From a virus: a stretch of 63,046 nucleotides of DNA. Where the stretch lies: the IMG/VR virus record IMGVR_UViG_3300042673_000070, positions 1 through 63,046 of that record, one strand, 5' to 3'. The notes under the pieces are model-generated. The model searched no databases and was not told the origin of the DNA. It saw nothing but the letters and a program-made list of their open reading frames with translations. Shown here one piece after another: positions 43 through 16,905 of the stretch. Every line of letters begins with the position of its first letter. Within the stretch, counting starts at the first letter, position 1. The position numbers were made by a program, and so were the translations under genes.

Positions 43-57
43 GTTTCAGAACTCCTA

Positions 58-1188: not shown

Positions 1189-1189
1189 T

Positions 1190-2155
1190 TTAGTTAGCCT
1201 CCAATTTCATCAATTCACGGGCATATTGCTCATTACTCAGTCCCAGCTTTTTGGCTAGGGCTACCTGAGTCGGCGTCAGACGTATCTGACGAGGGCCTGA
1301 TGACCGTGTGACCGGTGCAACCACATTGGCTGGTTTTGTGCGAGCAGGCTTTTCTTCCTGCTTCGTTTGAGGTCGTTCTTCCTCAGCGGTTTCAAACGCC
1401 TCCGGAAATCGTTTCCTCATCGTCGTGTTAACTCGGTCGTAGTACTCGTCGCTACGCGGATCGATTCCAGACCGGACCAGTTTTTCGTGCAGTCCCAAAG
1501 CAAGGGCGGTCATCTCCTCGTCGGTGCCAAACCACGGATTTTTATCCTTCCACGCCTCGGCTTTCGGGTCGATAGCGGGTTGAGGTGCCGGGGGCACTTG
1601 GTACTGTTCGGCTTGTTGTACTCCCGATTCTTCGTCTTGTAAAGAGGGTCGGAAGTTTTCGTACTGTTTAATTTTAAACTTAGCTTCGGTCAAAGCTTCT
1701 TGGGCGTCGGTAATCTTCTCCGCATCCCCAGCCTCGTACGCCTGCTTCAAACGTTCCTTGGCTACAACCAGATCATTACTGGCAGCCTTGGTGACTTCTT
1801 GGAAGTACGCCTTCTCACCATTACCGAGGCGCTGCTTTAACTGACGAATCTCCTGTTCCCGCAACTGGGCAAACCGGAATGCCTCCTCGCGCTCCCGTAG
1901 GGCGCGTTCTTTCTCACGACGCTCGTCGTGCCAGACCTTTTTCATCTGGGAGAGGCGCTTCTTGACCTTCTCGGAATACTCCTCAAGGTCGTCGTTATCA
2001 AGCTCGTTCACTACCTCTTTTGGTAGCGGCTTGCGGCCTCGGTCTTCTGGCGGGGTATCGTCCTCAACCTGAATCTCAAGTTCAGGCTCCTTTTCAACCG
2101 GCGTCTCCTGCGCTACTTCGTCAGGAAACTTGAATTCTTCTTTCTCAATAGCCAT
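1190..2155 (-). CDS. probable capsid scaffolding protein
   Basis: 321 aa, very rich in Glu, Lys, Arg and Gln. An acidic N-terminal region (residues 1-55) is followed by a long predicted helix/coiled coil (about 55-170, with repeated charged heptads), a Pro/Gln-rich linker (about 175-200), and a C-terminal basic helix with LTPTQVALAKKLGLS. Acidic-coiled-basic architecture with a short C-terminal helix that could bind coat protein is typical of phage scaffolds, and the gene lies between portal and capsid. No serine-protease signature is seen, so no self-cleaving prohead protease is evident. It would act in procapsid assembly and leave the mature head. Confidence 0.65.
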   Translation of the reverse strand: MAIEKEEFKFPDEVAQETPVEKEPELEIQVEDDTPPEDRGRKPLPKEVVNELDNDDLEEYSEKVKKRLSQMKKVWHDERREKERALREREEAFRFAQLREQEIRQLKQRLGNGEKAYFQEVTKAASNDLVVAKERLKQAYEAGDAEKITDAQEALTEAKFKIKQYENFRPSLQDEESGVQQAEQYQVPPAPQPAIDPKAEAWKDKNPWFGTDEEMTALALGLHEKLVRSGIDPRSDEYYDRVNTTMRKRFPEAFETAEEERPQTKQEEKPARTKPANVVAPVTRSSGPRQIRLTPTQVALAKKLGLSNEQYARELMKLEAN

Positions 2156-2165
2156 TGATTACTCC

Positions 2166-2543
2166 TTATGCGCGACGAATTCCACGGGGGTCATCGACCA
2201 CCGCTTCAACGTTGTCGTCGTTAATGATGCGGAACTCACGACCGTGGATGACCACGCGAGTACCTGTGTACGGACGGGTGAGGACAAAATCGCCTTCCTT
2301 ACACCACGGCCCAGTGGGGAACCGAGCCTCGTCCTTGTAGCAAAGATCACCCAACTTGATGACAAACAAGACCACAGTGGTCTGCTCTTCAACTCGCTTG
2401 GTGTCGTCTGCTTTGATGATGCCCCCATCAAACTCCTCTTCAACGTGCGGGACTGCACAGAGGATTCGGTAGCCACGGGGTTCTGGCAGCAGTTTGGCTT
2501 TCTCGGCTTCCTGCTGTGTCTTCTCAACGTCGATGTTGCTCAT
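2166..2543 (-). CDS. GroES-like co-chaperonin (phage gp31-type)
   Basis: 125 aa. The ATG at 2543 overlaps the stop of the upstream gene (ATGA-type coupling). The fold pattern matches GroES: an RGYRILCAVP strand, a GG-I-I mobile-loop-like segment (EEEFDGGIIKADDTKRVEE, about residues 35-53), a central KLGD strand, then KEGDFVLTRPYTGTRVVIHG and a final strand ending in AVVDDP. That is the GroES order of VGDRVLF..YAG..V..DG..Y.I...D.. . It would replace or compete with host GroES on host GroEL to fold a phage protein, most likely the capsid protein; no GroEL is in the window. Position within the head cluster supports this. Hallmark hydrophobic GGI of the mobile loop is present. Confidence 0.72.
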   Translation of the reverse strand: MSNIDVEKTQQEAEKAKLLPEPRGYRILCAVPHVEEEFDGGIIKADDTKRVEEQTTVVLFVIKLGDLCYKDEARFPTGPWCKEGDFVLTRPYTGTRVVIHGREFRIINDDNVEAVVDDPRGIRRA

Positions 2544-2728
2544 TCTTCTTCCATCCTTTTTGCAAGGTCTTTGATATAGCCAGTTGCGAGGTCGAGACCC
2601 TGTAACGCCCCGCATAGCCTTTTGTACTCACCTTCATCCAATTTGCCTTGAATGATGCTTTCCACGATCAATGTGCGCTCGTCTTGGAGTTTTGAATCCA
2701 AGTATTCCAGAGCGTTTGAATAGCTCAC
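2540..2728 (-). CDS. small helical protein after portal, unknown
   Basis: 62 aa, starting MSYSNALEYLDSKLQDERTL. Almost entirely helix-forming and charged, with one Cys and no membrane segment. It begins 3 nt after the portal stop and its own stop overlaps the start of the GroES-like gene, so portal, this gene and the co-chaperonin form one translationally linked block. I know no function; a small accessory factor for portal or head assembly is a guess from position. Confidence 0.5.
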   Translation of the reverse strand: MSYSNALEYLDSKLQDERTLIVESIIQGKLDEGEYKRLCGALQGLDLATGYIKDLAKRMEEE

Positions 2729-2731
2729 AAA

Positions 2732-5290: not shown

Positions 5291-5300
5291 CTAAATTCTC

Positions 5301-6815
5301 CTAGTAATAGCCTTCGCTTCGGCGTTTGAAGTAACGCTCAGGTTCCGGCTCATCGCTAGCCAAACGTAAAAACCCACCCTGTCTGTACCGTAGCAGGGCT
5401 TGAGTCATAGAGTCTACCAAGTCATCGTGTTCGCCTGACGGGAAACTTGCCACTTCCTCAACCAACTCTTCGGCCCAGTGGGTGTTGGGTACCCATACCC
5501 TACCCGATGCAAAGATGTCCGCCACGGCGTTTAGTCGTGCGATCTTGTCGTTGCCCTTGCTAGGAGTGAACTCCTGCACCGGAATACCCATGGCACGTAA
5601 CTCAAATATCAGAGGACTACCGGCTGCCTTGGCTTCGACGATCAAACTGTCCGGATTCCACTCTTTATACTCATCAAACGCCCGTTCTTTGAGTTCCGGA
5701 AACTCCATTCGGTCCTTGAAAGCGTTCAGGAGGATGATGTTCGACTGCAATTTACCTGTATCGTCCGGGTGTTCGAAGATTCCCCACGTTGTACAGGCTG
5801 AATAGTCAGCACGCTGTGTTTTGAGGAACGCGGTATCCCAAGATTGGATCGTATAACTGCAAAATGGCGGGTGATCCTTCTCCCAAACCTTCCACCACTC
5901 ACGTTTAATGATGGCCGATACGTCAGAAGTCGGTTGCTGCTGGTACTGAGCCATCCATTTGCCGTTCGGAAGCTCCTGACGAAGGGCTTCAAGCTCTTCG
6001 ATCTTCCAAAACTGGGGCCAAAGGGCGTTTCCAGAGGGCAAAATGGCCGGAAATTCGATAACTTCCCACTCTTCACCGCTGCGCTGAGCCGCAGCCTTCA
6101 AAACTTGGCCTGTTAGATCCTTTTTGGACCATCTCGTCATGACTATGACGATGGCTCCGCCCGGTTGCAGACGCTGCCGGGGTCCCGACGTGTACCATTC
6201 GTAGGTTTTGTCGTAAATATCCGAGTTTGTCTCGGCTAATGTGGCTTCTTGTTCCGAGTGAGGGTCGTCAATAATGAGCAGATCCGCGCCTTTACCGGTC
6301 ACGGCACCGCCGATGCCGATTGCGAAGTACTCGCCAGCATAGTTTGTAGCCCACCGGCCTGCTGCTTTTGAGTCTGCTTGCAGGGCTACCTGCGGAAAGA
6401 TGTCTTTATACCGGTCAGAATCGACAAGGTTACGTACCTTTCGGCCAAATCCCACTGCAAGTTCTGCCGTGTGGGACGTTTGAATGATCTTCTTGTCCGG
6501 AAATCTACCCAGAAACCAGCTTGGCAGTAGGTACGAAGCGAACTCTGACTTCGTATGACGAGGTGGCATATTGATAATCAGGCGTTTTGTCTTGCCTTCT
6601 GCCACTCGTTCAAAAGCCTGCGCCATCTTCTCGTGGTGCCGACCATTAATGAAGTTAGGCCACACGTATTTAACGTAGGCCATGAAGTCGTTTTTGGCTT
6701 TTTCCTGCGTTCCAACCTTCCTTGCCTCAGCAAGGAGTTGCCCCACCTTCTGCTGTAGCTCAGGCGGCATAGTCGGAAGCTTAGCTTCCAGATCAAGCAG
6801 CAGCTTCGGATCCAC
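5301..6815 (-). CDS. terL: terminase large subunit
   Basis: 504 aa packaging motor. ATPase half: Walker A-like PPRHTKS at about 84-90, Walker B LLIIDD at 179-184, and coupling motif MTRW at 226-229. Nuclease half (RNase H fold): SWDTA with Asp near 327, VEAKAAG with Glu near 394, and HDDLVDSM with Asp near 464-468, so all metal ligands are present. It cuts concatemeric DNA and pumps it through the portal. The reading frame begins at a GTG (6815) inside the end of the small-subunit gene, a 23-nt overlap that suggests coupled translation; an internal ATG (residue 16) is an alternative start. Confidence 0.93.
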   Translation of the reverse strand: MDPKLLLDLEAKLPTMPPELQQKVGQLLAEARKVGTQEKAKNDFMAYVKYVWPNFINGRHHEKMAQAFERVAEGKTKRLIINMPPRHTKSEFASYLLPSWFLGRFPDKKIIQTSHTAELAVGFGRKVRNLVDSDRYKDIFPQVALQADSKAAGRWATNYAGEYFAIGIGGAVTGKGADLLIIDDPHSEQEATLAETNSDIYDKTYEWYTSGPRQRLQPGGAIVIVMTRWSKKDLTGQVLKAAAQRSGEEWEVIEFPAILPSGNALWPQFWKIEELEALRQELPNGKWMAQYQQQPTSDVSAIIKREWWKVWEKDHPPFCSYTIQSWDTAFLKTQRADYSACTTWGIFEHPDDTGKLQSNIILLNAFKDRMEFPELKERAFDEYKEWNPDSLIVEAKAAGSPLIFELRAMGIPVQEFTPSKGNDKIARLNAVADIFASGRVWVPNTHWAEELVEEVASFPSGEHDDLVDSMTQALLRYRQGGFLRLASDEPEPERYFKRRSEGYY

Positions 6816-7377
6816 TTCCGGTACCTAGTTCTTCGTCCAGATCAATCTCGGCAAGGCTTACTGGCTTGGATTCGGTAACGTCAGTGTATTCACCTTCGTA
6901 CAGTTCCAGCGTTTTACGCAGTTCTGTCTCAATATCTTTAACCGTGCGGTGAGTCACGGTCACATCAATACGGTCTGAGAAGAGTCCAACACCGTTAATT
7001 TTGCCTAGCATTTCCAAGGCTTTTAGCCGGACCTTGGGGTCTGGATCCTGAGTCTCCAGAACGAACTTGTTCGTCACGTAGTTACGCAGTCTGCGATGTA
7101 CGTCCAGCACTTCCTTGTCGTATTCGGACAGGATGGCATTTAGATGTTTGACGGATGCCGGGGTTATATTCTTGGGTGACGGGATACTTTCTTCCAACAT
7201 CATCCCGTGAGACTGGATGCGGTCATCGTCCGTAACCTCAACATCCAGCCCGTTGCGTTCCAACTCCTCGACCGTGTTCAGCATGGCCTCGGCTTTTGCA
7301 CGGAAGTTGTCTAGCTCTTCCGGCGTGGTGTCGAAAGGAAAAGGAATACCAAGTTCCGGTGTTGCAACAACTGGCAT
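6793..7377 (-). CDS. terS: probable terminase small subunit
   Basis: 194 aa, first gene of the leftward packaging arm and overlapping terL by 23 nt. The middle holds a helical segment with the pattern ALEMLGKINGVGLFSDRIDV (about residues 118-137), which resembles the conserved LKALELLGK..GLF motif near the C-terminus of Terminase_2-like small subunits, followed by a strongly charged oligomerisation-type helix and an acidic tail. It would recognise the packaging site and feed DNA to TerL; the G-run-rich DNA just upstream is a candidate site. Assignment rests on this motif, size and position; no obvious N-terminal HTH can be read by eye. Confidence 0.65.
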   Translation of the reverse strand: MPVVATPELGIPFPFDTTPEELDNFRAKAEAMLNTVEELERNGLDVEVTDDDRIQSHGMMLEESIPSPKNITPASVKHLNAILSEYDKEVLDVHRRLRNYVTNKFVLETQDPDPKVRLKALEMLGKINGVGLFSDRIDVTVTHRTVKDIETELRKTLELYEGEYTDVTESKPVSLAEIDLDEELGTGSGSEAAA

Positions 7378-7630: not shown

Positions 7631-7648
7631 TATAAACACGTGTTTATA
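7631..7648. repeat. palindrome copy 1 (perfect, promoter-upstream)
   Basis: TATAAACACGTGTTTATA, a perfect 18-bp palindrome with a CACGTG core. It ends 19 bp before the -35 box of the promoter at 7668 and is the first copy of the early-region palindrome family. Confidence 0.9.
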
Positions 7649-7667
7649 CTTTGAAAAGTCAAAATAG

Positions 7668-7699
7668 TTGACATTCTCCCCATGATGTGAGACTATATA
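7668..7699 (+). promoter_or_regulatory. candidate sigma-70 promoter for the 7753 gene
   Basis: A consensus -35 TTGACA (7668-7673) is followed by an AT-rich -10 area GACTATATA (7691-7699). At 17-bp spacing the hexamer is GACTAT, a poor -10; TATATA fits better but at 20-bp spacing. The perfect palindrome lies upstream. It would drive the monocistronic gene 7753-8292, which has its own terminator. Confidence 0.45.
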
Positions 7700-7752
7700 T
7701 CCACGGTCGAGCAACGGCCGCAACACGTAAAAACATATTGGAGTGTAACGTC

Positions 7753-8292
7753 ATGGCTATTTCGTCAACTGTTAAAAAGACTTCGACCGACGCGATCCAG
7801 TTGGAAGCAAAGACTGGCAAGAAGTGGAAAGAAGCGGGTGAGGCTATCCGCGCCGAGTACGCGAGTGCCGAGGCTTTCACGGCAATCAAAGACGAGTATC
7901 TGGACACGGTTGTCTATCCTGCACTAGGCGATGAAGCGGTACGCATCATGCGCGCCGTGATACCGCGCTCGAATTCGAAAGAGTTTATTGGTGCGAGTGC
8001 GACTCAACAGGCGGAATGGGTTGCAGACGGCAAGGCGAAAATTTCGGTGCGCGGAACTGCAAACAGTCTGTTTGCACGAGTGCGGGACAAATACGCTTTC
8101 CCGAGTGTGGCCGACGACACCGAAACCGAGTCCGAGTCCGAGGGTGCAAACAAGCGCACCGACGACGTAACCTACTGCATGGAGCGCAACACACAATGCG
8201 AGAAGCGGTTGCAGAAGTCCGAGACACCACCGAAAAACATCGCCAAGGTTCTGGCACTCTACGCCGAGATCAATAAACTTCTGGTTGGTTGA
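7753..8292 (+). CDS. unknown early protein, monocistronic; candidate regulator
   Basis: 179 aa. The ATG at 7753 is chosen because GGAG stands 10 nt upstream; an in-frame upstream extension has no ribosome site and would overlap the promoter. N-terminal half is helix-rich and basic (TGKKWKEAGEAIRAEY), there is a polar acidic run of Glu/Ser/Thr at about 127-135, and two Cys in the C-terminal third. No known domain is recognised. It is the only gene between a promoter with the perfect palindrome and a strong terminator, an arrangement often used by autoregulated phage regulators. That role is inference from layout, not from a visible DNA-binding motif. Confidence 0.6.
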   Translation: MAISSTVKKTSTDAIQLEAKTGKKWKEAGEAIRAEYASAEAFTAIKDEYLDTVVYPALGDEAVRIMRAVIPRSNSKEFIGASATQQAEWVADGKAKISVRGTANSLFARVRDKYAFPSVADDTETESESEGANKRTDDVTYCMERNTQCEKRLQKSETPPKNIAKVLALYAEINKLLVG

Positions 8293-8301
8293 TTCGACAC
8301 A

Positions 8302-8332
8302 CCCGACCGGCTCGTGCCGGTCGGGATTTTTT
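8302..8332 (+). terminator. strong rho-independent terminator
   Basis: Perfect 10-bp GC-rich stem CCCGACCGGC / GCCGGTCGGG with a 4-nt loop, then A and six T (8327-8332). It ends the transcript of the 7753 gene and insulates it from the downstream early genes. Confidence 0.92.
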
Positions 8333-8380
8333 GTGCCCGAACTATCATGCCTGTAGCAGCGGATCGTCGCGCATCAAGTT

Positions 8381-8396
8381 ATAAACAGATGTTTAT
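8381..8396. repeat. palindrome copy 2
   Basis: ATAAACAGATGTTTAT: two exact 7-bp arms around GA. It is not next to any start codon or to a promoter I can see, unlike most copies. Confidence 0.85.
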
Positions 8397-8428
8397 GATT
8401 CGCGTGGCTGGTTTTGGTTGTGCTTCAA

Positions 8429-8454
8429 CCGATAACGTGCTTGCACGTTATCGG
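8429..8454. repeat. perfect 12-bp inverted repeat
   Basis: CCGATAACGTGC, TT, GCACGTTATCGG, followed by ATTTTC. As RNA this is an 11-12-bp hairpin with a tiny loop; the T-run is only four long, so it is either a second, weaker terminator or a protein-binding site. It is unrelated in sequence to the RTAAACA family. Confidence 0.7.
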
Positions 8455-8611
8455 ATTTTCGTAGGCTCCGCAAGGGGTCTAGTGAAAAAAGTACGTACCA
8501 AAAATGCTATGCAATTCTGACCATCAGGAGCAGCCAGTGTACTTCGGGAGCAGTATGAGGTACACCAACTAACTGTATGATTTTATTAGAGTTAATAGTC
8601 GTTTTTTATAT

Positions 8612-8637
8612 ATAGTGCAGAGAAACACTATTTTTTT
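8612..8637 (+). terminator. weak AT-rich hairpin with T-run
   Basis: ATAGTG / CACTAT stem (6 bp, 8-nt loop) running directly into seven T (8631-8637). It resembles a weak terminator for anything that reads through the stronger hairpin at 8302, or an unwinding element within the AT-rich block. Confidence 0.4.
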
Positions 8638-8668
8638 ATACGTCCCCCAAAATGCTCTCACAACACGT

Positions 8669-8683
8669 ATAAACGCGTTTTAT
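8669..8683. repeat. degenerate palindrome copy 3
   Basis: ATAAACGCGTTTTAT: core AAACGCGTTT is palindromic but the arms differ from the RTAAACA family in two positions. Possible decayed copy. Confidence 0.4.
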
Positions 8684-8772
8684 TTTTGTTGGGCATTGTC
8701 GATCTGAAGTTGGCTGGCAGGTCAAAAATCACTGCTTTTTCGGCACTGGGTGACATTTAGCCTCGTAACTTC

Positions 8773-8801
8773 TTGACTTTTAAGGCTTTTTCTGATACAC
8801 T
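8773..8801 (+). promoter_or_regulatory. sigma-70 promoter for the early operon
   Basis: TTGACT (8773-8778), exactly 17 bp, then TACACT (8796-8801). Transcription would begin near 8808, so the palindrome at 8864-8881 lies in the 5' leader of the first early mRNA. Confidence 0.65.
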
Positions 8802-8863
8802 ATTTGCTACACCGTTGGGACTGGCTGCACCCGACACTTTGAATATCACAAAGCAGCCTGATT

Positions 8864-8881
8864 TATAAACACATGTTTATA
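8864..8881. repeat. palindrome copy 4 (before ribosome site)
   Basis: TATAAACACATGTTTATA with 8-bp arms around CA. It runs directly into GGAGTGCATCATG, the ribosome site and start of the 8892 gene. Confidence 0.9.
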
Positions 8882-8891
8882 GGAGTGCATC

Positions 8892-9101
8892 ATGAGCAAT
8901 GAGTTCTGTTGTGTGGTTTGTTCGTCGCCGGTCAATCCACATCGTTGGGAATTGGGATACCACTGGTGCAAACCGTGTGGCGAAGCATCAGCAAAACGTC
9001 AAAAGCACACCATCGTCCCGATGCACAAGAGCAACTACATCGTGGTGACGAACCGCGAGGACTTAAAAGGCATCAACAACAAGGGAGGGTTCTACAGGTG
9101 A
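8892..9101 (+). CDS. small zinc-ribbon protein
   Basis: 69 aa, first gene of the early operon. Cysteines at 6, 7 and 10 (CCVVC) and at 26 and 29 (CKPC) make a probable C-x2/3-C ... C-x2-C zinc knuckle; the remainder is basic and ends with NNKGGFYR. Such small zinc proteins in phages often bind nucleic acid or a host polymerase, but I recognise no specific family. ATG follows palindrome copy 4 and AGGAG. Its last codon overlaps the GTG of the next gene. Confidence 0.7.
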   Translation: MSNEFCCVVCSSPVNPHRWELGYHWCKPCGEASAKRQKHTIVPMHKSNYIVVTNREDLKGINNKGGFYR

Positions 9102-9322
9102 CCAAGGCAATTAAATTGCCTCCCCGAACCAAACTGTACGGCTACGACTACAACAAGAACCAAACCCTGCACATGACCGGCAAGGAGTGGCACATCTACG
9201 CCAAGCGCGACACGTTCAAGCATCCGTACGACCGTGACGCACGAGACACAGCATGGAGCGGTACGGGTATCGAAGTTTGGCTAGACGGTGCGACGTTGGA
9301 TAAGTCCTACCCGCGCACATAA
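9098..9322 (+). CDS. small basic protein, unknown
   Basis: 74 aa from a GTG start at 9098 that overlaps the previous stop (GTGA). AAGGGAGGG (9081-9089) lies at ideal distance. The frame is open further upstream, but that part lies inside the zinc-ribbon gene and has no ribosome site. Basic and aromatic-rich (KLYGYDYNKN, KEWHIYAKRD), ending SYPRT. No known domain. Co-translated with the zinc-ribbon gene. Confidence 0.65.
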   Translation: MTKAIKLPPRTKLYGYDYNKNQTLHMTGKEWHIYAKRDTFKHPYDRDARDTAWSGTGIEVWLDGATLDKSYPRT

Positions 9323-9326
9323 ATTC

Positions 9327-9342
9327 ATAAACAGATGTTTAT
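9327..9342. repeat. palindrome copy 5 (before ribosome site)
   Basis: ATAAACAGATGTTTAT starts 4 bp after the stop of the previous gene and is followed at once by AGGAGTG, the ribosome site of the 9356 gene. Identical to copy 2. Confidence 0.9.
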
Positions 9343-9355
9343 AGGAGTGAGTGCA

Positions 9356-9646
9356 ATGACTATTGAAACCATGAGCCGAGACGAGTTGATCGAGGCGATT
9401 GTGGACTTCCAAGTCCACACGTTTATGAGTGGACAGAATCAGTCGGAGTTACGACATATCTTGCTGTACGGACATGGATACAAAACGTACACGCTACATG
9501 ATGACAACAACTGGACTACTGAACAGTTGCGGGAATACGCCAAGGACTTGGGCGTGTTGGATGAGGGATTCAAGAGGAGAAACGTAGCGGGACATATTGT
9601 CGAGCCGCCCAACCGTGACGAGTGGGTCAACTGGGGGAGGAAATAA
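9356..9646 (+). CDS. unknown early protein
   Basis: 96 aa from the ATG at 9356, which has AGGAG 9 nt upstream; the frame is open further up only through the palindrome. Acidic N-terminal helix (MSRDELIEAIVDFQVHTF), then a WTTEQLREYAKDLGV segment that looks like a small helical domain. No cysteines, no membrane segment. Stop is 2 nt before the start of the next gene, so the two are coupled. Confidence 0.65.
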   Translation: MTIETMSRDELIEAIVDFQVHTFMSGQNQSELRHILLYGHGYKTYTLHDDNNWTTEQLREYAKDLGVLDEGFKRRNVAGHIVEPPNRDEWVNWGRK

Positions 9647-9648
9647 CC

Positions 9649-10077
9649 ATGCAAACCTTCCTACCGTATCCGTCCTACGAGCACTCTGCGCGGGTACTGG
9701 ATTACCGGAGACTCGGCAAGCAGCGAGTCGAGACAAAGCAAATCCTACTTGCCATGAGCAAGACGACAGGCGGGTGGCGTAACCATCCTGCGACGAAGAT
9801 GTGGCGTGGCTACGAGATCGAGTTGGCTCTGTACGGAGCGGCTATGTGCTACGAGTGGAAGTCCAGAGGGTACAAGGACAGTCTGCATGACTTTTTTCTA
9901 CTCGCGGCGAGCGAGTACATGGCTGACGGACGACGGGCAGCACCGCCACCGTGGATAGGCGACGAGTCAATCCATGCGTCACACCGGTCGAATCTGCTAC
10001 GGAAAGACCCTGTGTTCTATGGGCAGTTCGGATGGAGTGAGAGTGCCGATCTGCCGTATGTGTGGCCGGTTGAGTAA
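9649..10077 (+). CDS. DenV-like / conserved phage protein (possible pyrimidine-dimer DNA glycosylase family)
   Basis: 142 aa. N-terminus MQTFLPYPSYEHSARVLDYR with GKQRVE, then NHPATKMWRGYE and later HASHRSNLLRKDP.FYGQFGW. I recognise this as a widespread phage protein family that has been linked to the pyrimidine-dimer excision (T4 endonuclease V, Pyr_excise) group; the late His-..S-R..L..K-P..Y pattern is reminiscent of T4 DenV. If so it would nick UV-damaged DNA. DenV's catalytic Thr2 is not evident here (residue 2 is Gln), so enzymatic activity is uncertain. GGGGAGG stands before the ATG. Confidence 0.5.
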   Translation: MQTFLPYPSYEHSARVLDYRRLGKQRVETKQILLAMSKTTGGWRNHPATKMWRGYEIELALYGAAMCYEWKSRGYKDSLHDFFLLAASEYMADGRRAAPPPWIGDESIHASHRSNLLRKDPVFYGQFGWSESADLPYVWPVE

Positions 10078-10083
10078 GTGATT

Positions 10084-10101
10084 TATAAACACATGTTTAT
10101 A
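10084..10101. repeat. palindrome copy 6 (before ribosome site)
   Basis: TATAAACACATGTTTATA, identical to copy 4, 6 bp after the previous stop and immediately before GGAGTGCA and the ATG at 10113. Confidence 0.9.
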
Positions 10102-10112
10102 GGAGTGCAAGT

Positions 10113-10406
10113 ATGACTAACGAAATCTGGAACATCGAAGGTGAAGGCGAGGCTCGGTACGAGCCTGACGAGATCGACATTCTCGAAGAACTGTACACGC
10201 AAGAGCGTTTGGCAAATGACTACTTAATTGAACAATTAAAAATGCTTTCAACAGCAGAACCGCGTGAAGCGTTGGACGGTATCAGAAACATATTGGAGCA
10301 AGGCTTCATCTACTTTGGCGAACAGCGCCCGTGGGATAGACCCGCCTTGCAGACACTCATTGGACAGAATCAACAACTAGATTTATTCGAGGAGACAGTG
10401 CAATGA
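10113..10406 (+). CDS. unknown acidic protein with C-terminal beta-clamp-binding motif
   Basis: 97 aa, acidic (many Glu/Asp in residues 8-30). No fold is recognised, but near the C-terminus it carries QLDLF (residues 88-92), which is the canonical bacterial sliding-clamp (DnaN) binding pentapeptide QL(S/D)LF, placed in a short, probably flexible tail as in many clamp clients. It could tether a phage activity to the host clamp or block it. Downstream overlap (ATGA) couples it to 10403-11212. The motif is seen; the binding is inference. Confidence 0.65.
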   Translation: MTNEIWNIEGEGEARYEPDEIDILEELYTQERLANDYLIEQLKMLSTAEPREALDGIRNILEQGFIYFGEQRPWDRPALQTLIGQNQQLDLFEETVQ

Positions 10407-11212
10407 ATCCGTATTACCTACAGACGAAGGAACACTACGAGAACACAAAGCCGATCCGAGGTCGGGCGGTGGAGGTTCGTCCTGCCGGTAAACGTCGGCG
10501 TGACTGGGAGCAGATCACAAACCCTGCACCGGACACGTATGCGTACAGGTTGTACAACACCGACTGCGTGATCCACACACCCGAGAGAACCGTATTGACC
10601 TACGGACAATGGCCGACCGTAACTACGGCGAAGTTTATTGGCGACTACATGCGGTCGGTTCCGTGTATCAAACGGTACAACACTCTGTGGACATCGCACA
10701 ACAACATGGTTGGTTGGTATCCGATATGTAAACAACTGTTTATAGATTACGACGCCGAGGGCAACAAAATCCCACGCATCGAGCCCGTACCAGTACAGGT
10801 AGTGGATCGCAAACGGGCGAAGGAATTGCGAAAGCGATTGATCCCGTTCATCAACTACGGCGTGACCATGCTGAAGTTATCGGATGGGTGGATCACACGT
10901 AAGTTTGTGGAAGAGACACGGCAACGTGTGTTTGAGAAGTGGCCGAGCGTCTTGCGTGAGAAGTTGAACTTCAACAACTTCATAGATACACCCGAGGACT
11001 TGCTGCCGTATTACATGTATCAGATGGCGACACTATCCACGCCGGTATCGTTCCGTAAGTCTGTCTCTGATCCGTTCGAGTTGGACAGACAGTATTCGCC
11101 TGAATCATTCAAGCGTCAGGTGTATGCGCTGCACGACAAGCAAGAGTCCGAGGTGTATCGGATCGGATACAGGCTACCCGATGGGAATATGTTTACGAAC
11201 GTGGTCGTGTGA
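10403..11212 (+). CDS. conserved phage protein, unknown function
   Basis: 269 aa, basic. Residues about 45-75 show the pattern Y-R-L-Y-N-T-D ... L-T-Y-G-Q-W-P-T-V-T-T, resembling a motif (RLHxT...GGWxTxTTKxR) that I have seen in many uncharacterised phage proteins near replication genes. The C-terminal half is helical and rich in Tyr/Phe. No catalytic signature. The start overlaps the stop of the clamp-motif gene. A palindrome copy (10728-10743) is embedded in the coding sequence. Confidence 0.6.
   Translation: MNPYYLQTKEHYENTKPIRGRAVEVRPAGKRRRDWEQITNPAPDTYAYRLYNTDCVIHTPERTVLTYGQWPTVTTAKFIGDYMRSVPCIKRYNTLWTSHNNMVGWYPICKQLFIDYDAEGNKIPRIEPVPVQVVDRKRAKELRKRLIPFINYGVTMLKLSDGWITRKFVEETRQRVFEKWPSVLREKLNFNNFIDTPEDLLPYYMYQMATLSTPVSFRKSVSDPFELDRQYSPESFKRQVYALHDKQESEVYRIGYRLPDGNMFTNVVV
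10728..10743. repeat. palindrome copy 7 (inside a gene)
   Basis: GTAAACAACTGTTTAT: exact family arms around AC, within the coding sequence of 10403-11212. Confidence 0.85.
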
Positions 11213-11215
11213 ATG

Positions 11216-11231
11216 ATAAACACGTGTTTAC
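11216..11231. repeat. palindrome copy 8 (just upstream of a -35 box)
   Basis: ATAAACACGTGTTTAC, with the same CACGTG core as copy 1. It ends 6 bp before the -35 of the promoter at 11238, so a protein bound here could activate or block that promoter. Confidence 0.9.
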
Positions 11232-11237
11232 AAAACA

Positions 11238-11266
11238 TTGACTTTGACCCTGCAATCAAATATAAT
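11238..11266 (+). promoter_or_regulatory. near-consensus sigma-70 promoter for the MoxR-VWA block
   Basis: TTGACT (11238-11243), exactly 17 bp, TATAAT (11261-11266): the best promoter seen in the window. Predicted start near 11273, about 30 nt before the MoxR start codon. Confidence 0.85.
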
Positions 11267-11303
11267 ATATCCAACAGTTAGATAAACAACAACGGAGTGC
11301 ATC

Positions 11304-12377
11304 ATGAGTCTGATTAATTTTGGTAAGACGATTTCCTTGAATGACTTTGCCCATGCCGTAGCCGAGTGCGGTCATGAGGTGACTCTGGTAGGCGAAGGCG
11401 AGATGGGTATTGGCAAGTCAGCCATGCTCAAAGAGATAGCCAAGCGGCTACCGACACATCTCCCTGCGTACATCGACTGCACATTGCTAGACCTAGGTGA
11501 CTTTGCTCTGCCGTATACAGTCGAGGAGAACGGTATGCGGGTGACTAAGTTTGCACCCAATGCGCGGTTCAGATTCCACGAGGGTAAGCCGGTCATCATC
11601 ATGCTCGATGAGATTGGCAAGGCGATGGGTGCGGTCAAGAACGTGCTGATGACCCTGATGAACGAGGGGCGTGTCGGTGATCAGTTTGTGCCAGAAGGTA
11701 GTCGTATCTTTGCGACCACTAACCTAGGCATGGAGAATCTGGGTGACTTGCTGCAACCACACCAACGGAATCGTATCTGTTCGGTGCGTATCCGTAAGCC
11801 CGAGGCCGAGGAGTGGATCGAGAACTATGCGCTGAGCAATGATATTGCACCCGAGGTCATCACATGGGTAAAGCAGTTTCCACAATGTCTTGCAGCCGGT
11901 GATGATCCAGCCCAACGTGAGAATCCGTACATCAATGTGATCGGCCAGACCAAGACAGGCGCGGTTGTTACGCCACGTAGTCTGGAGAAGGCAAGCCACA
12001 TCGCCAAGCGTCGAGCAGTACTGGGTGATGAACTCACCATTAGTATGTTGATCGGTGTGATCGGTGAGTCTGCGGCGCGGGACATGCAAGCGTTCTTCAC
12101 GGTGGTGGACAAGTTGCCAACGTGGGATGCCATCATCGCAAGCCCAAGCACAGCGAAGTTACCGGATGACACTATCGCTCGGTGTATCTGTGTGTTCGGT
12201 GCAATCAGTCGAGTGCAGAAGGATACGTTGTCGAAGTGGATGACGTACGTACAACGTATGGACAAGGAGTGGCAAGCCCTGTTTGCCAAGTCTGTGATGA
12301 AGTCTGACAAGCAATCGTTCTGTGTGACTAACAAGGACTTCAAGGACTGGGCGTTGGCTAATGAGTGGCTGTTCTAA
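11304..12377 (+). CDS. MoxR-type AAA+ ATPase
   Basis: 357 aa. Walker A GEMGIGKS at 32-39, Walker B IIMLDE at 98-103, sensor-1 FATTN at 136-140, then a helical lid. This is the MoxR/CobS-like AAA+ family, which usually acts as a ring chaperone with a partner carrying a von Willebrand A domain; the next gene is exactly such a partner. The pair would remodel or insert metal into a target protein. ATG at 11304 follows CGGAGTGCATC. Driven by the strong promoter at 11238. Ends within palindrome copy 9. Confidence 0.85.
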   Translation: MSLINFGKTISLNDFAHAVAECGHEVTLVGEGEMGIGKSAMLKEIAKRLPTHLPAYIDCTLLDLGDFALPYTVEENGMRVTKFAPNARFRFHEGKPVIIMLDEIGKAMGAVKNVLMTLMNEGRVGDQFVPEGSRIFATTNLGMENLGDLLQPHQRNRICSVRIRKPEAEEWIENYALSNDIAPEVITWVKQFPQCLAAGDDPAQRENPYINVIGQTKTGAVVTPRSLEKASHIAKRRAVLGDELTISMLIGVIGESAARDMQAFFTVVDKLPTWDAIIASPSTAKLPDDTIARCICVFGAISRVQKDTLSKWMTYVQRMDKEWQALFAKSVMKSDKQSFCVTNKDFKDWALANEWLF

Positions 12378-12392
12378 TAAACATCTGTTTAC
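12377..12392. repeat. palindrome copy 9 (before ribosome site)
   Basis: ATAAACATCTGTTTAC overlaps the last base of the MoxR stop codon and precedes GGGAGTGCATCATG of the VWA gene. Confidence 0.9.
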
Positions 12393-12407
12393 AAATGGGA
12401 GTGCATC

Positions 12408-13583
12408 ATGGCGAAACTAACTGCTGAACAGCGTGTGCAACGGGCGCACGTTGCGTTGATGAACGATCCGAAATACTGCCTGTTCTCTGGCGTGTTCATG
12501 ATCGGCAAGACCGAGGTCGTCGATAACGTGGCTACTGCCTGTACCAACGGGCGCGATGTGAAGTATGGCCGCAAGTTCGTGGACAAACTCACTGAGCAGG
12601 AGTTGCGTGGCCTGATCCTGCACGAGAACAAACACAAAGCGTTCCGTCATCTGGAGATTTGGAAGCCACTGTGGAAGGAGAACCCGCGCCTTGCAAACAT
12701 GGCGTGTGACTACGTGATCAACCTGATGATCTATGACTCTGATGTGGAAGGTAAGTTTGTGAAGTTGCCCGAGGGTGGGTGCTTTGACGAGCGGTTCCGT
12801 GGCATGGATGCAAACACTGTTTACAAAATCCTGAAGCAAGAACAGGAGAAGGGTAACGGTGGTGACGAGAAGGATGAGGACGGTCAAGGCGGTGGCCTAG
12901 ACGACCATGATTGGGAATCTGGTGAGCAGATGAGCAAGGAAGAGAAGGAGACTCTGGTGCGTGACGTTGACCAAGCGTTACGTCAGGGTGCGATTCTCGC
13001 TGGCAAGATGAAGGGTAACGTGCCACGCGAAGTGACCGATGCTTTGACACCGAAGGTGGATTGGCGTGAGGTGCTGCGTGAGTTCGTCAAGTCTGTGTGC
13101 GCGGATCGTGACGAGAGCACATGGAGGCGGCCCGCACGTAGATGGATAGGCCAAGATATTTATATGCCATCCAGTATCAGTACGGCGATCGGGCGTATCA
13201 CGGTGGCTATCGATACGTCAGGCTCCATCGACGGTGAGCAGATCAGTCAGTTCTTGGGTGAGTTGAAGGCTATCTGCGATACGGTCAAGCCCGAGGGTAT
13301 TGATCTGTTGTATTGGGATACGGCTGTGTGTCAGCACGAGAAGTACGACCGTGGTGAGTTTGATCAAATCCTGCGTAGCACCAAGCCGCGAGGTGGTGGT
13401 GGCACTGATCCACGTTGCATCACCGAGTACATGAAGGCCAAGCACATGAAGGCCGAGTGCGCGGTTGTGTTGACCGATGGATATGTGGGTACGTGGGGCA
13501 GCGGGTGGCCGTGTCCTGTGCTGTGGGGCATCACTACGGTGGGCATCACGGCTGCTGTTGGTAAGTCAGTAACGATTCAATAA
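12408..13583 (+). CDS. VWA-like metallopeptidase-domain protein (DUF2201 type), MoxR partner
   Basis: 391 aa. N-terminal putative metallopeptidase domain with HENKH at 72-76 (HExxH) and a further His at 81; acidic Gly-rich linker at about 148-172; C-terminal VWA domain with MIDAS motif DTSGS (269-273), GGGGTD and a late TDGYV Asp. Architecture matches the DUF2201 family, whose members are encoded beside MoxR ATPases. The VWA MIDAS residues are intact, so metal-dependent ligand binding is likely; peptidase activity is less certain. Palindrome copy 10 is embedded at 12810-12824. Confidence 0.82.
   Translation: MAKLTAEQRVQRAHVALMNDPKYCLFSGVFMIGKTEVVDNVATACTNGRDVKYGRKFVDKLTEQELRGLILHENKHKAFRHLEIWKPLWKENPRLANMACDYVINLMIYDSDVEGKFVKLPEGGCFDERFRGMDANTVYKILKQEQEKGNGGDEKDEDGQGGGLDDHDWESGEQMSKEEKETLVRDVDQALRQGAILAGKMKGNVPREVTDALTPKVDWREVLREFVKSVCADRDESTWRRPARRWIGQDIYMPSSISTAIGRITVAIDTSGSIDGEQISQFLGELKAICDTVKPEGIDLLYWDTAVCQHEKYDRGEFDQILRSTKPRGGGGTDPRCITEYMKAKHMKAECAVVLTDGYVGTWGSGWPCPVLWGITTVGITAAVGKSVTIQ
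12810..12824. repeat. palindrome copy 10 (inside VWA gene)
   Basis: GCAAACACTGTTTAC: one mismatch in the left arm, one-base centre. Confidence 0.65.
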
Positions 13584-13594
13584 ACACTGTTTAT
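13580..13594. repeat. palindrome copy 11 (one-base centre, before ribosome site)
   Basis: ATAAACACTGTTTAT: arms as elsewhere but with a single C between them. It overlaps the VWA stop and is followed by AAATAGGAGAGTG, the ribosome site of the next gene. Confidence 0.9.
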
Positions 13595-13612
13595 AAATAG
13601 GAGAGTGCAATC

Positions 13613-14434
13613 ATGATTCAAGATAGTGCTGTTTTGGTTGACCTGAACATCTCTGTGTGGACTGGTCGCAAGTTGGACAAGCGTGTGTCTGAACAAGTGG
13701 ATGCGTCGAACAACACAAAGACCCGCGCAGGCAACTACCACAAGAAACTACTCGCCGGTACGGAGGCATTGGACGCGCTTCATGCGGCGGCTAACTTGCT
13801 GCGTCAGTATCACTACGAGAACACGTTACCGTGGAGCGATAGCGGTACACGACTGCTGCCGATGAGTAACTTCTTTGATTACAAGGCAGGACTCGCTGAC
13901 TTCCAAGCCAACTTCAACGGTGCGCTTGAGGAGTTTATCGGTCAGTACGACGACCTTGTGAGTGCGGCGGCGTTCACGTTGGGTGATCTGTTTAATCCGA
14001 ATGATTATCCGAGTGCTGAGCAGGTGCGTAGCAAGAACTCTATACGTGTTGTGTACAGCCCTGTACCCAATGCCGGTGACTTCCGTGTGGACATTCCGAA
14101 TGAGTACCGTGAGGAACTCCAGAAGATTTCCGACGAGCGTATCAATGCGGCGATGAAGGACGCATGGGATCGGCTGCATGACTGCCTGAAACATATGTCC
14201 GAGAAGTTGGCAGGTGAGCAGAAGCAAGTGTTCCGTGACACGTTGGTAACTAACGCGCTTGATCTGTGCGTCATGCTGACGAGACTCAATGTGACTAACG
14301 ATCCGAAGTTGGAACAGGCACGCAAGCAGTTGGAGTCTGCGCTGATCGGTGTCGATGCCAAGGAGTTACGCAAGCACGATGCGGTACGCCACGATGTGAA
14401 GTCACGTGTCGATGAAATCCTGAGTATGTTTTAA
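13613..14434 (+). CDS. DUF3150-like protein, third member of the MoxR-VWA block
   Basis: 273 aa. N-terminus AVLVDLNISVWTGRK followed by a Lys/Arg-rich helix, a TRLLP segment and long helices; this matches my memory of DUF3150, a family of unknown function commonly encoded beside MoxR and VWA/CobT-like genes in phages and mobile elements. No catalytic residues are evident. Close spacing and the shared leader signal support a functional link with the two upstream genes, perhaps as substrate or adaptor; that is inference. Confidence 0.65.
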   Translation: MIQDSAVLVDLNISVWTGRKLDKRVSEQVDASNNTKTRAGNYHKKLLAGTEALDALHAAANLLRQYHYENTLPWSDSGTRLLPMSNFFDYKAGLADFQANFNGALEEFIGQYDDLVSAAAFTLGDLFNPNDYPSAEQVRSKNSIRVVYSPVPNAGDFRVDIPNEYREELQKISDERINAAMKDAWDRLHDCLKHMSEKLAGEQKQVFRDTLVTNALDLCVMLTRLNVTNDPKLEQARKQLESALIGVDAKELRKHDAVRHDVKSRVDEILSMF

Positions 14435-14443
14435 CGGCTAGAT

Positions 14444-14458
14444 GTAAACACTGTTTAT
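14444..14458. repeat. palindrome copy 12 (one-base centre, before ribosome site)
   Basis: GTAAACACTGTTTAT, followed by AAATAGGAGA and the ATG at 14475; the leader is nearly the same as that of copy 11. Confidence 0.9.
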
Positions 14459-14474
14459 AAATAGGAGAACAGAG

Positions 14475-15257
14475 ATGCTTACTGGACGAATTGAAGATAA
14501 CGACCGCATGGCTCGGCTAAACTTGTTTATGCGTGATTTGAAGCGCACACATGTGAGCCGGTATCCGCTGCGTGTGGAGTCGGACGGGACTACCTGTGTG
14601 GAAATCTACGATGATCGGTTCACACACAAGCCGGTGCTGACCTTGTATGCCGTGGATGGCAACACGTACAAAATCTGGAGTCCGATGATCGTCAACGAGA
14701 AGTTCAGCCACAACAATTCTGACTACCACACCCGCAAGTCATCCGATGGGGCGAAGATCAGACGGTGGCTGAAGGAGTATGCCGTACCGCACTCGACACG
14801 GTTTATTTCACGTACGTCGTACGATCTCATGACTGGCAACGTATACACGTGGAGAAACCAATACTACGGAGATATACGCGAGGCACAGCGAAGCATCGTC
14901 AGTGACGATGTGCTTGAGGACATTCTGAATTACATCAAGACGGGTGTGGCGTATCAGAGTTCCAAGTTCAACAAGTTCAAGGACTCAGAGTTTATTGCCA
15001 AGGCCGAACAGCATGTGGAGCGGAGCAAGGCAACTAACCCGACGCTGCACGTACTGGTGAATCCCGATGAGATGGTGTCTGTAAATAAAATGCTCAATAC
15101 GTGGGATGAACCTGAAAACATCTGTACACAACTGTACGACACGCTTGATGACAACTACCGTTCAAAGATTGCACTACTCAAAATGGTCGCACCAAAGACG
15201 ATGCTTGGTGAGGTGGGTGTAAGGATTGACACTTGCAACTTTTGGATATACAAATAG
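14475..15257 (+). CDS. unknown early protein
   Basis: 260 aa, basic, with mixed alpha/beta pattern. An N-terminal half rich in short strands (CVEIYDDRFTHKPVLTLYAV) is followed by a helical region with many Lys/Glu. It begins right after palindrome copy 12, in the same run as the MoxR-VWA-DUF3150 genes, so it may be a fourth member of that set. No domain recognised, no Cys cluster, no membrane segment. Confidence 0.6.
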   Translation: MLTGRIEDNDRMARLNLFMRDLKRTHVSRYPLRVESDGTTCVEIYDDRFTHKPVLTLYAVDGNTYKIWSPMIVNEKFSHNNSDYHTRKSSDGAKIRRWLKEYAVPHSTRFISRTSYDLMTGNVYTWRNQYYGDIREAQRSIVSDDVLEDILNYIKTGVAYQSSKFNKFKDSEFIAKAEQHVERSKATNPTLHVLVNPDEMVSVNKMLNTWDEPENICTQLYDTLDDNYRSKIALLKMVAPKTMLGEVGVRIDTCNFWIYK

Positions 15258-15292
15258 TTGACCTGCAAATAACGGTGGGTTAGAGTGCAAAG

Positions 15293-15625
15293 ATGATAAA
15301 ATGTAGTAGATGGCTTTTAAGTGTGAGCCTTAGAACTAATGGCGACGAGTACCGTTACTACACCCTGCTTGATCAGCGCAAACAACAATCAACACGATTC
15401 GACAGTCATAAACACTGTTTACATATCGACGTTGCAGAGAAACTGGCGTTGGTGAGGATCAGGCGGGGTGACTACGACAACACAAACGTAATGGGTACGT
15501 GGATCGGTGATCGACACCTGATCGTGGCCTTGAATAAAGACGAGTACCAATACCTACTGGAGTTGACGTATGGCAGCGACACCGGAAAGCAAAGTAAAAG
15601 ATCGCGTAAAAAAGATACTGGCTAA
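15293..15625 (+). CDS. unknown small protein
   Basis: 110 aa. Start chosen at ATG 15293 after TAGAGTGCAA, which matches the GAGTGCA signature of other early leaders. Strand-rich N-terminal half, then VALNKDEYQYLLELTYG and a basic tail (KQSKRSRKKDTG) that overlaps the next gene by 56 nt. Palindrome copy 13 lies inside it. Moderate support: good leader signal, but long overlap. Confidence 0.5.
   Translation: MIKCSRWLLSVSLRTNGDEYRYYTLLDQRKQQSTRFDSHKHCLHIDVAEKLALVRIRRGDYDNTNVMGTWIGDRHLIVALNKDEYQYLLELTYGSDTGKQSKRSRKKDTG
15408..15422. repeat. palindrome copy 13 (inside a gene)
   Basis: ATAAACACTGTTTAC, one-base centre, in the coding sequence of 15293-15625. Confidence 0.85.
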
Positions 15626-15920
15626 ATATCAGAAAACATACCACCTACTACCGATGACGGGTGGTTATGGATCATCCGGAGCACCAGACATTATCGCGTT
15701 AATTGACGGTAAGTTTATAGGTATCGAGTGCAAGGCTAACGGCAACAAGCCTACGGCATTGCAGATGAAACATCTGGAGAAGATTGTTGGGGCAGAGGGG
15801 TATGGGTTTGTGGTCGATGACAAGTCAATCGGTGTGTTCATCTTGGCGTTGGATAACGTAGTAAATAACCGAGCAAAACCTGCCGTGATGGATTTAACAC
15901 GTGAAGAAGGAGCGAACTAA
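15570..15920 (+). CDS. VRR-NUC domain nuclease
   Basis: 116 aa. Contains the VRR-NUC/PD-(D/E)XK core: GSSGAPDIIAL (Asp near 40), GIECKANG (Glu 53, Lys 55) and a following LQ..HL helix with Gln near 65. These small stand-alone nucleases resemble Holliday-junction resolvases and are common in phages, acting on branched or flap DNA during replication, recombination or packaging. All catalytic residues are present. It overlaps the preceding gene by 56 nt and the next by 20 nt. Confidence 0.85.
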   Translation: MAATPESKVKDRVKKILAKYQKTYHLLPMTGGYGSSGAPDIIALIDGKFIGIECKANGNKPTALQMKHLEKIVGAEGYGFVVDDKSIGVFILALDNVVNNRAKPAVMDLTREEGAN

Positions 15921-16143
15921 AACACGTTACGGCGTGGCGCGTCGGATACTGCGGCTGACAAGATCACAGTTTGCAATCACGGCAACCGATCTGGTCGAGA
16001 CGTACGGATTCACATATCGCCATGCGTTGCGGTACATAAAGTGGATGCAGGAAGAGGGGCTGATTTACCTGCGGTATCGCAAGAATAGATATAACTATTA
16101 TTCAGTTGTGAGGAGAAAGCATGAAGTTGGAAAAATTAAATGA
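15901..16143 (+). CDS. small winged-helix DNA-binding protein
   Basis: 80 aa, strongly basic. GTG start at 15901 overlapping the nuclease end; the start is uncertain because the nearest AAGGAG (15905-15910) is inside the gene. The sequence ITATDLVETYGFTYRHALRYIKWMQEEGLIYLRYR reads as a winged helix: helix, recognition helix, then a basic wing. It could regulate early genes or assist the nuclease; nothing decides between these. Confidence 0.55.
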   Translation: MKKERTKTRYGVARRILRLTRSQFAITATDLVETYGFTYRHALRYIKWMQEEGLIYLRYRKNRYNYYSVVRRKHEVGKIK

Positions 16144-16420
16144 CGCGCTTGCCGTAGCCCATGAGTTCGGGCTGGACGGCGTGGACATAGCCATTCTTGG
16201 TGCGATTGCCGAGAAGCGGCGTGGCGAGGGGGGTGCAACTATCATGCAATTCTCTTCCGGTATTTCCGTCGCGTCGTTTGCGACGATCCATGCGCGTGTC
16301 AAACGCATGGTGGACAAAGGCATATTGTGCAAGCGGGTAAACAAAAGTAACGAACGCTACAAGGTGCTTGAAGATGGCCCTGCGTTCGGCAAGTTCATAA
16401 ACAAGTTGAGTGATGTTTAA
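16121..16420 (+). CDS. MarR-like winged-helix protein
   Basis: 99 aa. Good ribosome site (AGGAG) 8 nt before ATG 16121. Pattern LDGVDIAILGAIAEKRR, then MQFSSGISVASFATIHARVKRMVDKGILCKR, is a typical MarR/winged-helix arrangement with a recognition helix around residues 50-65 and a wing after it. A second DNA-binding protein next to the first, overlapping it by 23 nt. One of these may bind the palindromes; no direct evidence. Confidence 0.65.
   Translation: MKLEKLNDALAVAHEFGLDGVDIAILGAIAEKRRGEGGATIMQFSSGISVASFATIHARVKRMVDKGILCKRVNKSNERYKVLEDGPAFGKFINKLSDV
16397..16420. repeat. possible stretched palindrome copy
   Basis: Arms ATAAACA (16397-16403) and TGTTTAA (16414-16420) separated by 10 bp. 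It ends at the stop codon and lies shortly before the ribosome site of 16441. Could be a decayed copy or chance. Confidence 0.3.
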
Positions 16421-16440
16421 CAACCGAAGGAGTGACTAGA

Positions 16441-16905
16441 GTGAAGAAGAAGCAAACTAAAACGCAACGTATCAATGCGTTGCTTGCAGCAAGACCGGAA
16501 CTGACGATAAAGGAAGTAGCCAAGAAGTTGGGAGTAACTCCGAATCTTGTGCATCAGGCCAGATGGAAGGCCAAGCAGAACTCTGAATTTGTAAACAAGG
16601 TGTTTACAAAAGCGGGGCTGAAGAAGCCGTCGAGGATCATTGATGCGGTGACAGAGATGAAGACCACGCTCGATGCGTTGGACAAGATCAAAGACAAACC
16701 CGATCCCGTCAATCATCCTGCACATTACAAGGCTGGCGGTGTTGAGACTATCGACTTCATCGAGGCGAAGGATTTGAACTACCGTCTTGGCAACGTGGTG
16801 AAGTACGTCACTCGTGCCGGTAGGAAAGCGACTGATCCTATTGAGGATTTGAAGAAGGCTCGTTGGTACTTGGATCGTGAAATTTCTGTACGGGAGAAAG
16901 CATAA
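16441..16905 (+). CDS. HTH plus DUF3310 protein
   Basis: 154 aa. GTG at 16441 preferred because AAGGAG ends 8 nt before it. N-terminal helix-turn-helix (TIKEVAKKLGVTPNLVHQAR, about 20-39), basic linker, then a C-terminal domain with VNHPAHYKAGGVETIDFIEA and GNVVKYVTRAGRK...KKARWYLDREI, the signature of DUF3310, a very common phage domain of unknown role (sometimes called SaV-like nucleotide kinase). The HTH fusion suggests DNA association. Palindrome copy 14 lies inside. Confidence 0.75.
   Translation: MKKKQTKTQRINALLAARPELTIKEVAKKLGVTPNLVHQARWKAKQNSEFVNKVFTKAGLKKPSRIIDAVTEMKTTLDALDKIKDKPDPVNHPAHYKAGGVETIDFIEAKDLNYRLGNVVKYVTRAGRKATDPIEDLKKARWYLDREISVREKA
16591..16607. repeat. palindrome copy 14 (inside DUF3310 gene)
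   Basis: GTAAACAAGGTGTTTAC: exact arms with a three-base centre. Confidence 0.7.

Follow-up and report, generated by a model that had tools for sequence, protein, structure and literature searches.

The present analysis concerns a set of short palindromes in the early region of a freshwater phage, carried by a stretch of DNA of 63,046 nucleotides (the window, i.e. positions 1 to 63,046 of the IMG/VR virus record IMGVR_UViG_3300042673_000070). A scan of all 63,046 bases with the strict pattern RTAAACA-N1-3-TGTTTAY identified 12 exact copies, all of them in 7,632-16,607; the remaining ~54 kb yielded no match. These palindromes are sequence-specific and strand-symmetric DNA-level elements confined to early genes, and comparison with related phages showed that dyad class tracks, one to one, the family of the first early gene (7753..8292, plus strand, 179 amino acids, family A), which forms a unit by itself, preceded by its own leader and followed by a strong terminator, and whose product is the proposed operator-binding protein. 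The palindromes very probably form a dispersed set of DNA operators, and the first-gene product is likely to be the protein that binds them. The best explanation of the whole, which we consider fairly probable, is that of stoperator-like dispersed operators for the first-gene protein, used in early shut-off.

Number, placement and nature of the palindromes

The first-pass annotation of this DNA, made from the sequence alone, had claimed at least twelve good copies of the palindrome between 7.6 and 16.6 kb, and the strict scan supports it fully. The reversed pattern, used as a control, gave no match over the window and third-order Markov shuffles predicted 0.0 copies per window and 0.002 per 9-kb region. 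Chance and base composition are thus ruled out as the source of the palindromes by the scan, the reversed control and the shuffles, the frequency outside the region and in shuffled sequence being far from equal to that of the early arm. Most of the positions first given were right, those at 7631, 8864 and 10084 being each one base early. Among the weaker copies then listed, one is a true near copy (CAAACACTGTTTA, 11/12, at 12811..12823 within gene 12408-13583), but those at 8669 and 16397 are poor. The absence of any comparable copy from the virion arm stands for exact copies, none being found outside the region. A near copy outside the region had been overlooked: this best outlier (TAAACAGATGTTGA, 11/12, at 26911-26924) is located in the helicase gene, far from the cluster, and probably arose by chance.

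The palindromes are perfect dyads that match on both strands and therefore have no orientation, and they follow each other at intervals of ~0.5-1.2 kb. Their spacer depends on their position: the first eight copies, which extend to 12.4 kb, have N2, the three that follow have N1 and the final one has N3. Relatives keep N1 or N3 spacers in the same downstream genes. Two palindromes flank the first gene, one upstream of its -35 (7632..7647, ATAAACACGTGTTTAT) and one downstream (8381..8396, ATAAACAGATGTTTAT). The next three (8865..8880, 9327..9342 and 10085..10100) are found 11, 13 and 12 nt ahead of the ATG codons at 8892, 9356 and 10113, respectively. The palindrome at 11216..11231 directly precedes the -35 of the region's best promoter, and the one at 12377..12392 overlaps the stop codon of the AAA gene ahead of the ATG at 12408. 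Two N1 copies (13580..13594 and 14444..14458) precede the ATG codons at 13613 and 14475, and the remaining copies lie within genes: 10728..10743 in gene 10403-11212, 15408..15422 (N1) in gene 15293-15625 and 16591..16607 (N3) in gene 16441-16905. Overall, nine of the 12 palindromes are intergenic, two of them overlapping a stop codon by 1-4 nt, and three are inside genes.

Every non-overlapping junction wider than 3 nt between 8292 and 14475 carries a palindrome and the coupled junctions carry none, but the 35-nt junction 15257/15293 is also devoid of any. The earlier proposal of one palindrome at each uncoupled junction therefore holds from 8.3 to 14.5 kb and fails beyond; since the copies at 10728, 15408 and 16591 are wholly inside open reading frames (ORFs), it was too neat.

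Half of the palindromes (6/12) are located 11-18 nt ahead of a start codon, just before the ribosome-binding site, and a stem of 5-6 bp is possible at every site, as would be expected of RNA hairpins or translation elements similar to the start-associated sequences (SAS) and extended SAS (ESAS) of Cluster K. We compared 641 distinct sites pooled from relatives, allowing up to two mismatches and reading them on the transcribed strand. The outer pair just beyond the arms was A-T in 233 sites, G-T in 112, A-C in 105 and G-C in 44. Since an RNA stem tolerates G-U but not A-C, whereas both are equally acceptable in a DNA site that is read from either strand, the similar amounts of G-T and A-C indicate that the element acts as DNA. 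Within the arms, A-C (n = 55) even outnumbers G-T (n = 27) and changes that restore pairing are few (n = 18). Furthermore, the folds of the leaders are no better than those of shuffled sequences (z from -0.9 to +0.4), three sites are intragenic, and sites occur at least 100 nt ahead of the first gene. An RNA hairpin or translation element was therefore rejected on the G-T/A-C symmetry, the weak folds and the intragenic sites, and we regard it as extremely improbable; the mRNA-hairpin half of the first-pass annotation, which had proposed either an operator or a hairpin, finds no support. A search for known RNA families gave only one match, below threshold, over the 3' end of the first gene and its terminator.

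Co-variation of dyad class and first gene among relatives

Many relatives were drawn from IMG/VR through the similarity of their AAA ATPase and large terminase; a search of bacterial genomes for the AAA gene, aimed at a host or prophage, found none. Close relatives share the TAAACA sites. In distant ones, the terminase, first gene, 8892, 10403, AAA and VWA genes still follow each other in this order, but the dyads are different. About fourteen different dyad sequences were found among relatives, one per sublineage, the whole set being replaced each time. They include RTTAACA-N2-TGTTAAY, GTTATCA-N2-TGATAAC, ATTAAAC-N2-GTTTAAT, CTAAA-N3-TTTAG, ATAATGTC-N-GACATTAT, ATACTGTC-N-GACAGTAT, TTTCCCAC-N-GTGGGAAA, TTTCATAC-N-GTATGAAA, RTAAAAACGTTTTTAY and others. 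Whole records were scanned for TAAACA and TTAACA dyads, which make up the two commonest classes; here too the sites were limited to one region, and the reversed control gave zero matches. Relatives that lack the motif while keeping the gene order, named beforehand as a finding that would speak against the palindromes, thus exist, but most of them hold another palindrome family in the same places. Since most of these motif-less relatives combine other palindromes with a different first gene, the operator reading is strengthened.

One relative is cultured, the Planktothrix phage Pag-Yong1 (L168, OL906435), which has ~21 copies of GGTTCAG-N-CTGAACC, virion arm included. Its terminase match is the same as those of Synechococcus phage MinM2 and Planktothricoides phage Pra-JY27. 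Scanning viral contigs with its first-gene protein found no relatives.

In each of the 57 loci whose sequence reaches from the terminase side as far as the AAA gene, the first-gene position is occupied by an ORF of ~160-260 amino acids, and 51 of these loci encode a clear homologue of the 7753 protein there. The other six encode a divergent family A protein (L064) or proteins of family B (L079 and L083), family C (L081) or family D (L040 and L077). Co-variation was then counted over 86 distinct first-gene contigs. Family A is accompanied by A-type dyads (TAAACA/TTAACA-type) in 63 of 64 loci and family B by 17-bp N1 dyads in 15 of 18, the three misses being fragments of 6-7.5 kb; family C, represented by one locus, comes with a dyad of its own, and dyads were found in none of the three family D loci. 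Among these 86 contigs, there is no family A locus with a B-type dyad and no family B locus with an A-type one. In L040 and L077, the first gene is replaced by a gene encoding a phrog_1448 protein and no repeated palindrome was detected; these two perhaps use a different kind of regulator or site.

This relationship was also examined out of sample, on contigs fetched by similarity of the first-gene protein alone and then checked for the dyad. The TAAACA-class profile retrieved the predicted dyad in 28/28 of the loci listed, including the previously seen L012, L013, L015, L018 and L025; the 23 newly cut loci (L181-L203, several of them from contigs already seen) all have TAAACA sites and none has TTAACA sites. 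For family B, the prediction holds in L171-L174 and L178-L180, and in the short loci L120 and L154 as well. Ahead of the first gene, a class dyad is present in 46/46 loci (two mismatches being allowed where there was no exact copy), mostly 60-130 nt before the start codon. The one-to-one relationship between dyad class and first-gene family is thus shown. The operator half of the first-pass annotation, which counted the 7753 protein among its candidate binders, is supported: the sites are sequence-specific, symmetric, confined to the early region and track one protein.

If the sites belonged to a regulator of the host, and each host had its own version of it, they could also vary by lineage, as the dyads do. 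However, the dyad class shifts together with a phage gene family, up to full replacement of that family, a pattern that a host factor would not explain; we give this origin very little credit.

Candidate binder and proposed mode of action

The replacement of the first-gene family coincides with the change of dyad type while its neighbours (8892, 10403, the AAA ATPase and VWA genes) stay homologous. Within family A, similarities were compared at matched AAA identity. In L029 (ATTAAAC class), the first gene is 18.9 points (~4.5 standard deviations) below its expected similarity to TTAACA-class proteins, whereas the other genes shift by 5 points at most. Residues 98, 101 and 105, which separate the TAAACA class from the TTAACA class, are spaced i, i+3, i+7 and would occupy one face of the long helix 83-115 in the predicted model (predicted local distance difference test, pLDDT, >90). 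The two residue sets at these positions are T/S-G-V/S and D-S/A-T. Furthermore, L075 is TTAACA-like at most other class-separating columns, yet has TAAACA sites and TAAACA-type residues at 98, 101, 105 and 154.

The binder could instead be another phage protein with a helix-turn-helix (HTH)-like domain, the first gene merely travelling with the class. Weak HTH matches occur in 15901, 16121, 16441 and 28846, and in L057 two of these proteins, 16121 and 16441, likewise group with the TAAACA class. However, 15901, 16121 and 16441 are not universal, being present in 51, 49 and 32 of the 56 loci covering the region, and in L029 the drop is 4.3 for 15901 and 5.0 for 16121 versus 18.9 for 7753. Another binder than the first-gene product is therefore improbable in our view.

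The proteins themselves matched little. The 7753 protein (all-helical in its predicted model) has no match in Pfam, PHROG, PDB sequences or PDB folds, and comparison of its model with viral models gave nothing convincing. Fold and family searches with the family B protein found no significant match either, no tyrosine-recombinase-like match was obtained for family A or B, and searching 50,697 annotated phages with three first genes (those of the window, L069 and L117) gave no homologue. Homology was not detected among families A, B, C and the first gene of Pag-Yong1. We tentatively suggest, while regarding it as somewhat short of an even chance, that these at least three unrelated families (A, B and C), found in a widespread group of uncultured phages, and that of Pag-Yong1, each with its own dyads, may represent novel DNA-binding proteins. 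They would mark out specificity groups among phages that appear to be lytic and would time infection by a run of transcription stops.

According to the mechanism that we propose, expression of the 7753 protein would begin as soon as the phage has infected the cell, from a unit with a leader and a terminator of its own. The protein, probably dimeric and able to tolerate a 1-bp change of spacing, would bind to every one of the two-fold symmetric sites. As it accumulates, it would fill the sites at the first gene, at the ~11.24-kb internal promoter and at each early gene junction, and RNA polymerase would be blocked or stopped there, lowering early transcription unit by unit. The whole would act as a stoperator-like timer, possibly also excluding related phages. 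The pairings that it implies are the 7753 protein with RTAAACANNTGTTTAY, the TTAACA class (e.g. L069) with ATTAACANNTGTTAAT and family B (e.g. L117) with ATACTGTCNGACAGTAT. We infer from sequence that the protein physically binds the sites, that it does so as a dimer and in which direction it acts (block or activation); as regards this direction, we lean slightly towards a bound protein that would block or shut off early transcription. A lysogeny repressor is not indicated since neither integrase nor parAB was found among the subset of proteins that was scanned.

Several observations weigh against this proposal. On the trees of family A loci, parsimony requires five class changes for 7753, but also five for the AAA ATPase and five for 10403, and therefore the tree alone does not single out 7753. 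L020 and L027 have TAAACA sites although their first gene is only 21-22% identical to that of the window, and in L028, at matched AAA identity, gene 8892 drops by 23 and 7753 by 10.7. The model of the 7753 protein has no known DNA-binding fold. Lastly, the visible promoters have their site just upstream of the -35, a position used by activators and repressors alike.

This last point bears on whether the same protein, bound to the same operators, would rather activate transcription or let polymerase through, the junction sites being relays for early expression. Where a sigma70 promoter is recognisable nearby, the dyad is just upstream of its -35, with a centre at ~-46 to -68 (worked out by hand). 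In the window, three promoters, all on the plus strand, were noted: that of the first gene (putative, 7669..7703, TTGACA then a TATA-rich -10), which was seen by eye, has a spacing that is not ideal and was missed by the promoter scan; a putative one at 8773..8801 (TTGACT-N17-TACACT, 9/12); and the sigma70-like one at 11238..11266 (TTGACT-N17-TATAAT, 11/12), the best of the region, whose TTGACT starts 6 nt after the end of the 11216 palindrome. However, most sites have no recognisable adjoining promoter and some are intragenic, where activator sites are not expected, and activation seems to us rather unlikely. The palindromes were also considered as promoters themselves and rejected: they share no -10/-35 and their sequence differs by class (e.g. 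TTTCCCAC-N-GTGGGAAA).

Dispersed and partly intragenic sites spaced by ~0.5-1.2 kb could also be bound for genome organisation, replication or packaging, in a nucleoid- or centromere-like manner, and the authors who described the Corndog-like dyads considered some other role more likely than control of transcription initiation (PMC4351075). The sites of the window are confined to the early arm beside a regulator-like first gene and occur at nearly every uncoupled junction, and no parAB-like genes were found among the proteins scanned, so that a role of this kind appears quite unlikely compared with operators for the first-gene protein.

Other features surround this system. The strong intrinsic terminator of the first gene (8302..8325, plus strand) is followed, behind the 8381 palindrome, by a second strong terminator-like hairpin of 11 pairs (8429-8454). 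No gene is clearly recognisable ahead of this hairpin; the stretch 8335-8460 could hold a small RNA or a lost gene. The early operon includes a pyrimidine dimer DNA glycosylase gene (PF03013, 9650-10077), and the genes of a MoxR-like AAA ATPase, a DUF2201 metallopeptidase/VWA protein and a DUF3150 protein (11304-14434) make up a cassette conserved in nearly all relatives. The first 23 nt of the HTH-like genes 15901 and 16441 are nearly the same (91% identity), as if a gene start had been copied. Structural genes are found at both ends of the linear record (1-7377 and 32280-63046), and this split makes it probable that the 63-kb contig represents almost all of a circularly permuted genome.

Comparison with known systems

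Dyads dispersed over the early region and bound by one repressor are known from phiC31, whose conserved inverted repeats (CIRs) are bound by the c repressor; phiC31 is temperate and has a long c gene.

In Cluster A phages (L5, Bxb1), one regulator acts on 20-30 dispersed sites that are mostly off promoters, in short gaps, and whose sequence is specific to each subgroup (PMC6550527, PMC9283540). Similarly, the copies of the window are dispersed, mostly in short intergenic gaps, and their sequence co-varies with the proposed regulator. However, Cluster A stoperators are 13-bp, asymmetric and oriented sites bound by the monomeric HTH repressor (Rep) of temperate phages (PMC6550527, PMC9283540) whereas those of the window are perfect, non-oriented dyads, the 7753 protein has no recognisable HTH or relation to L5 Rep, and no integrase was found among the scanned proteins. 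The SPbeta element SPBRE is also dispersed, intergenic and bound by one master repressor of unusual fold, MrpR, but this prophage protein is tyrosine-recombinase-like and has ~320 amino acids (PMC10516654), compared to 179 for the all-helical 7753 protein, which has no PDB match. Since they combine perfect non-oriented dyads with a binder of unmatched fold, the palindromes are filed neither under Cluster A stoperators nor under SPBRE/MrpR.

The SAS/ESAS of Cluster K are repeats located just before the ribosome-binding sites of some non-virion genes, with adjoining inverted repeats and a consensus that varies by subgroup; ESAS have 17-bp arms and 4-13 bp spacers and are tied to an asymmetric 13-bp start sequence (PMC3203893). 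In contrast, the arms found in the window have 6-7 bp, its sites also occur within genes and before promoters, and only six of the 12 are less than 20 nt before a start codon; they are not tied to translation starts.

The palindromes are most like the dyads of Cluster O (Corndog) mycobacteriophages, 17-bp TGTTCGG-N3-CCGAACA sequences present in more than 30 copies genome-wide, many of them in the short gaps that separate non-virion genes and about a third intragenic (PMC4351075). No integrase or parABS was found in Corndog-type phages and a dimeric binder was expected, no function being found for the dyads (PMC4351075). Both systems have many copies of one perfect dyad, part of them intragenic (3/12 in the window), but the window has 12 copies in one 9-kb arm and its binder is nominated by co-variation over at least 11 dyad classes. 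Until now, neither a binder nor a generally accepted function has been available for the dispersed dyads of phages without an obvious lysogeny module, such as Corndog. In the present group, most of the ~fourteen dyad classes have a nominated protein partner and the family D loci, without dyads, provide negative controls; the question can therefore be tested by a few gel shifts, and Pag-Yong1 offers a cultured system for such tests. If the proposal is true, it would add two or more new DNA-binding families and show that a whole operator set changes together with its regulator, and the specificity groups to which uncultured freshwater phages belong could be read from sequence. Overall, the initial view that this system is not a known one appears right for its regulators, which seem new, but not for its layout, which is of the same kind as Cluster A stoperators, SPbeta SPBRE and Corndog dyads.

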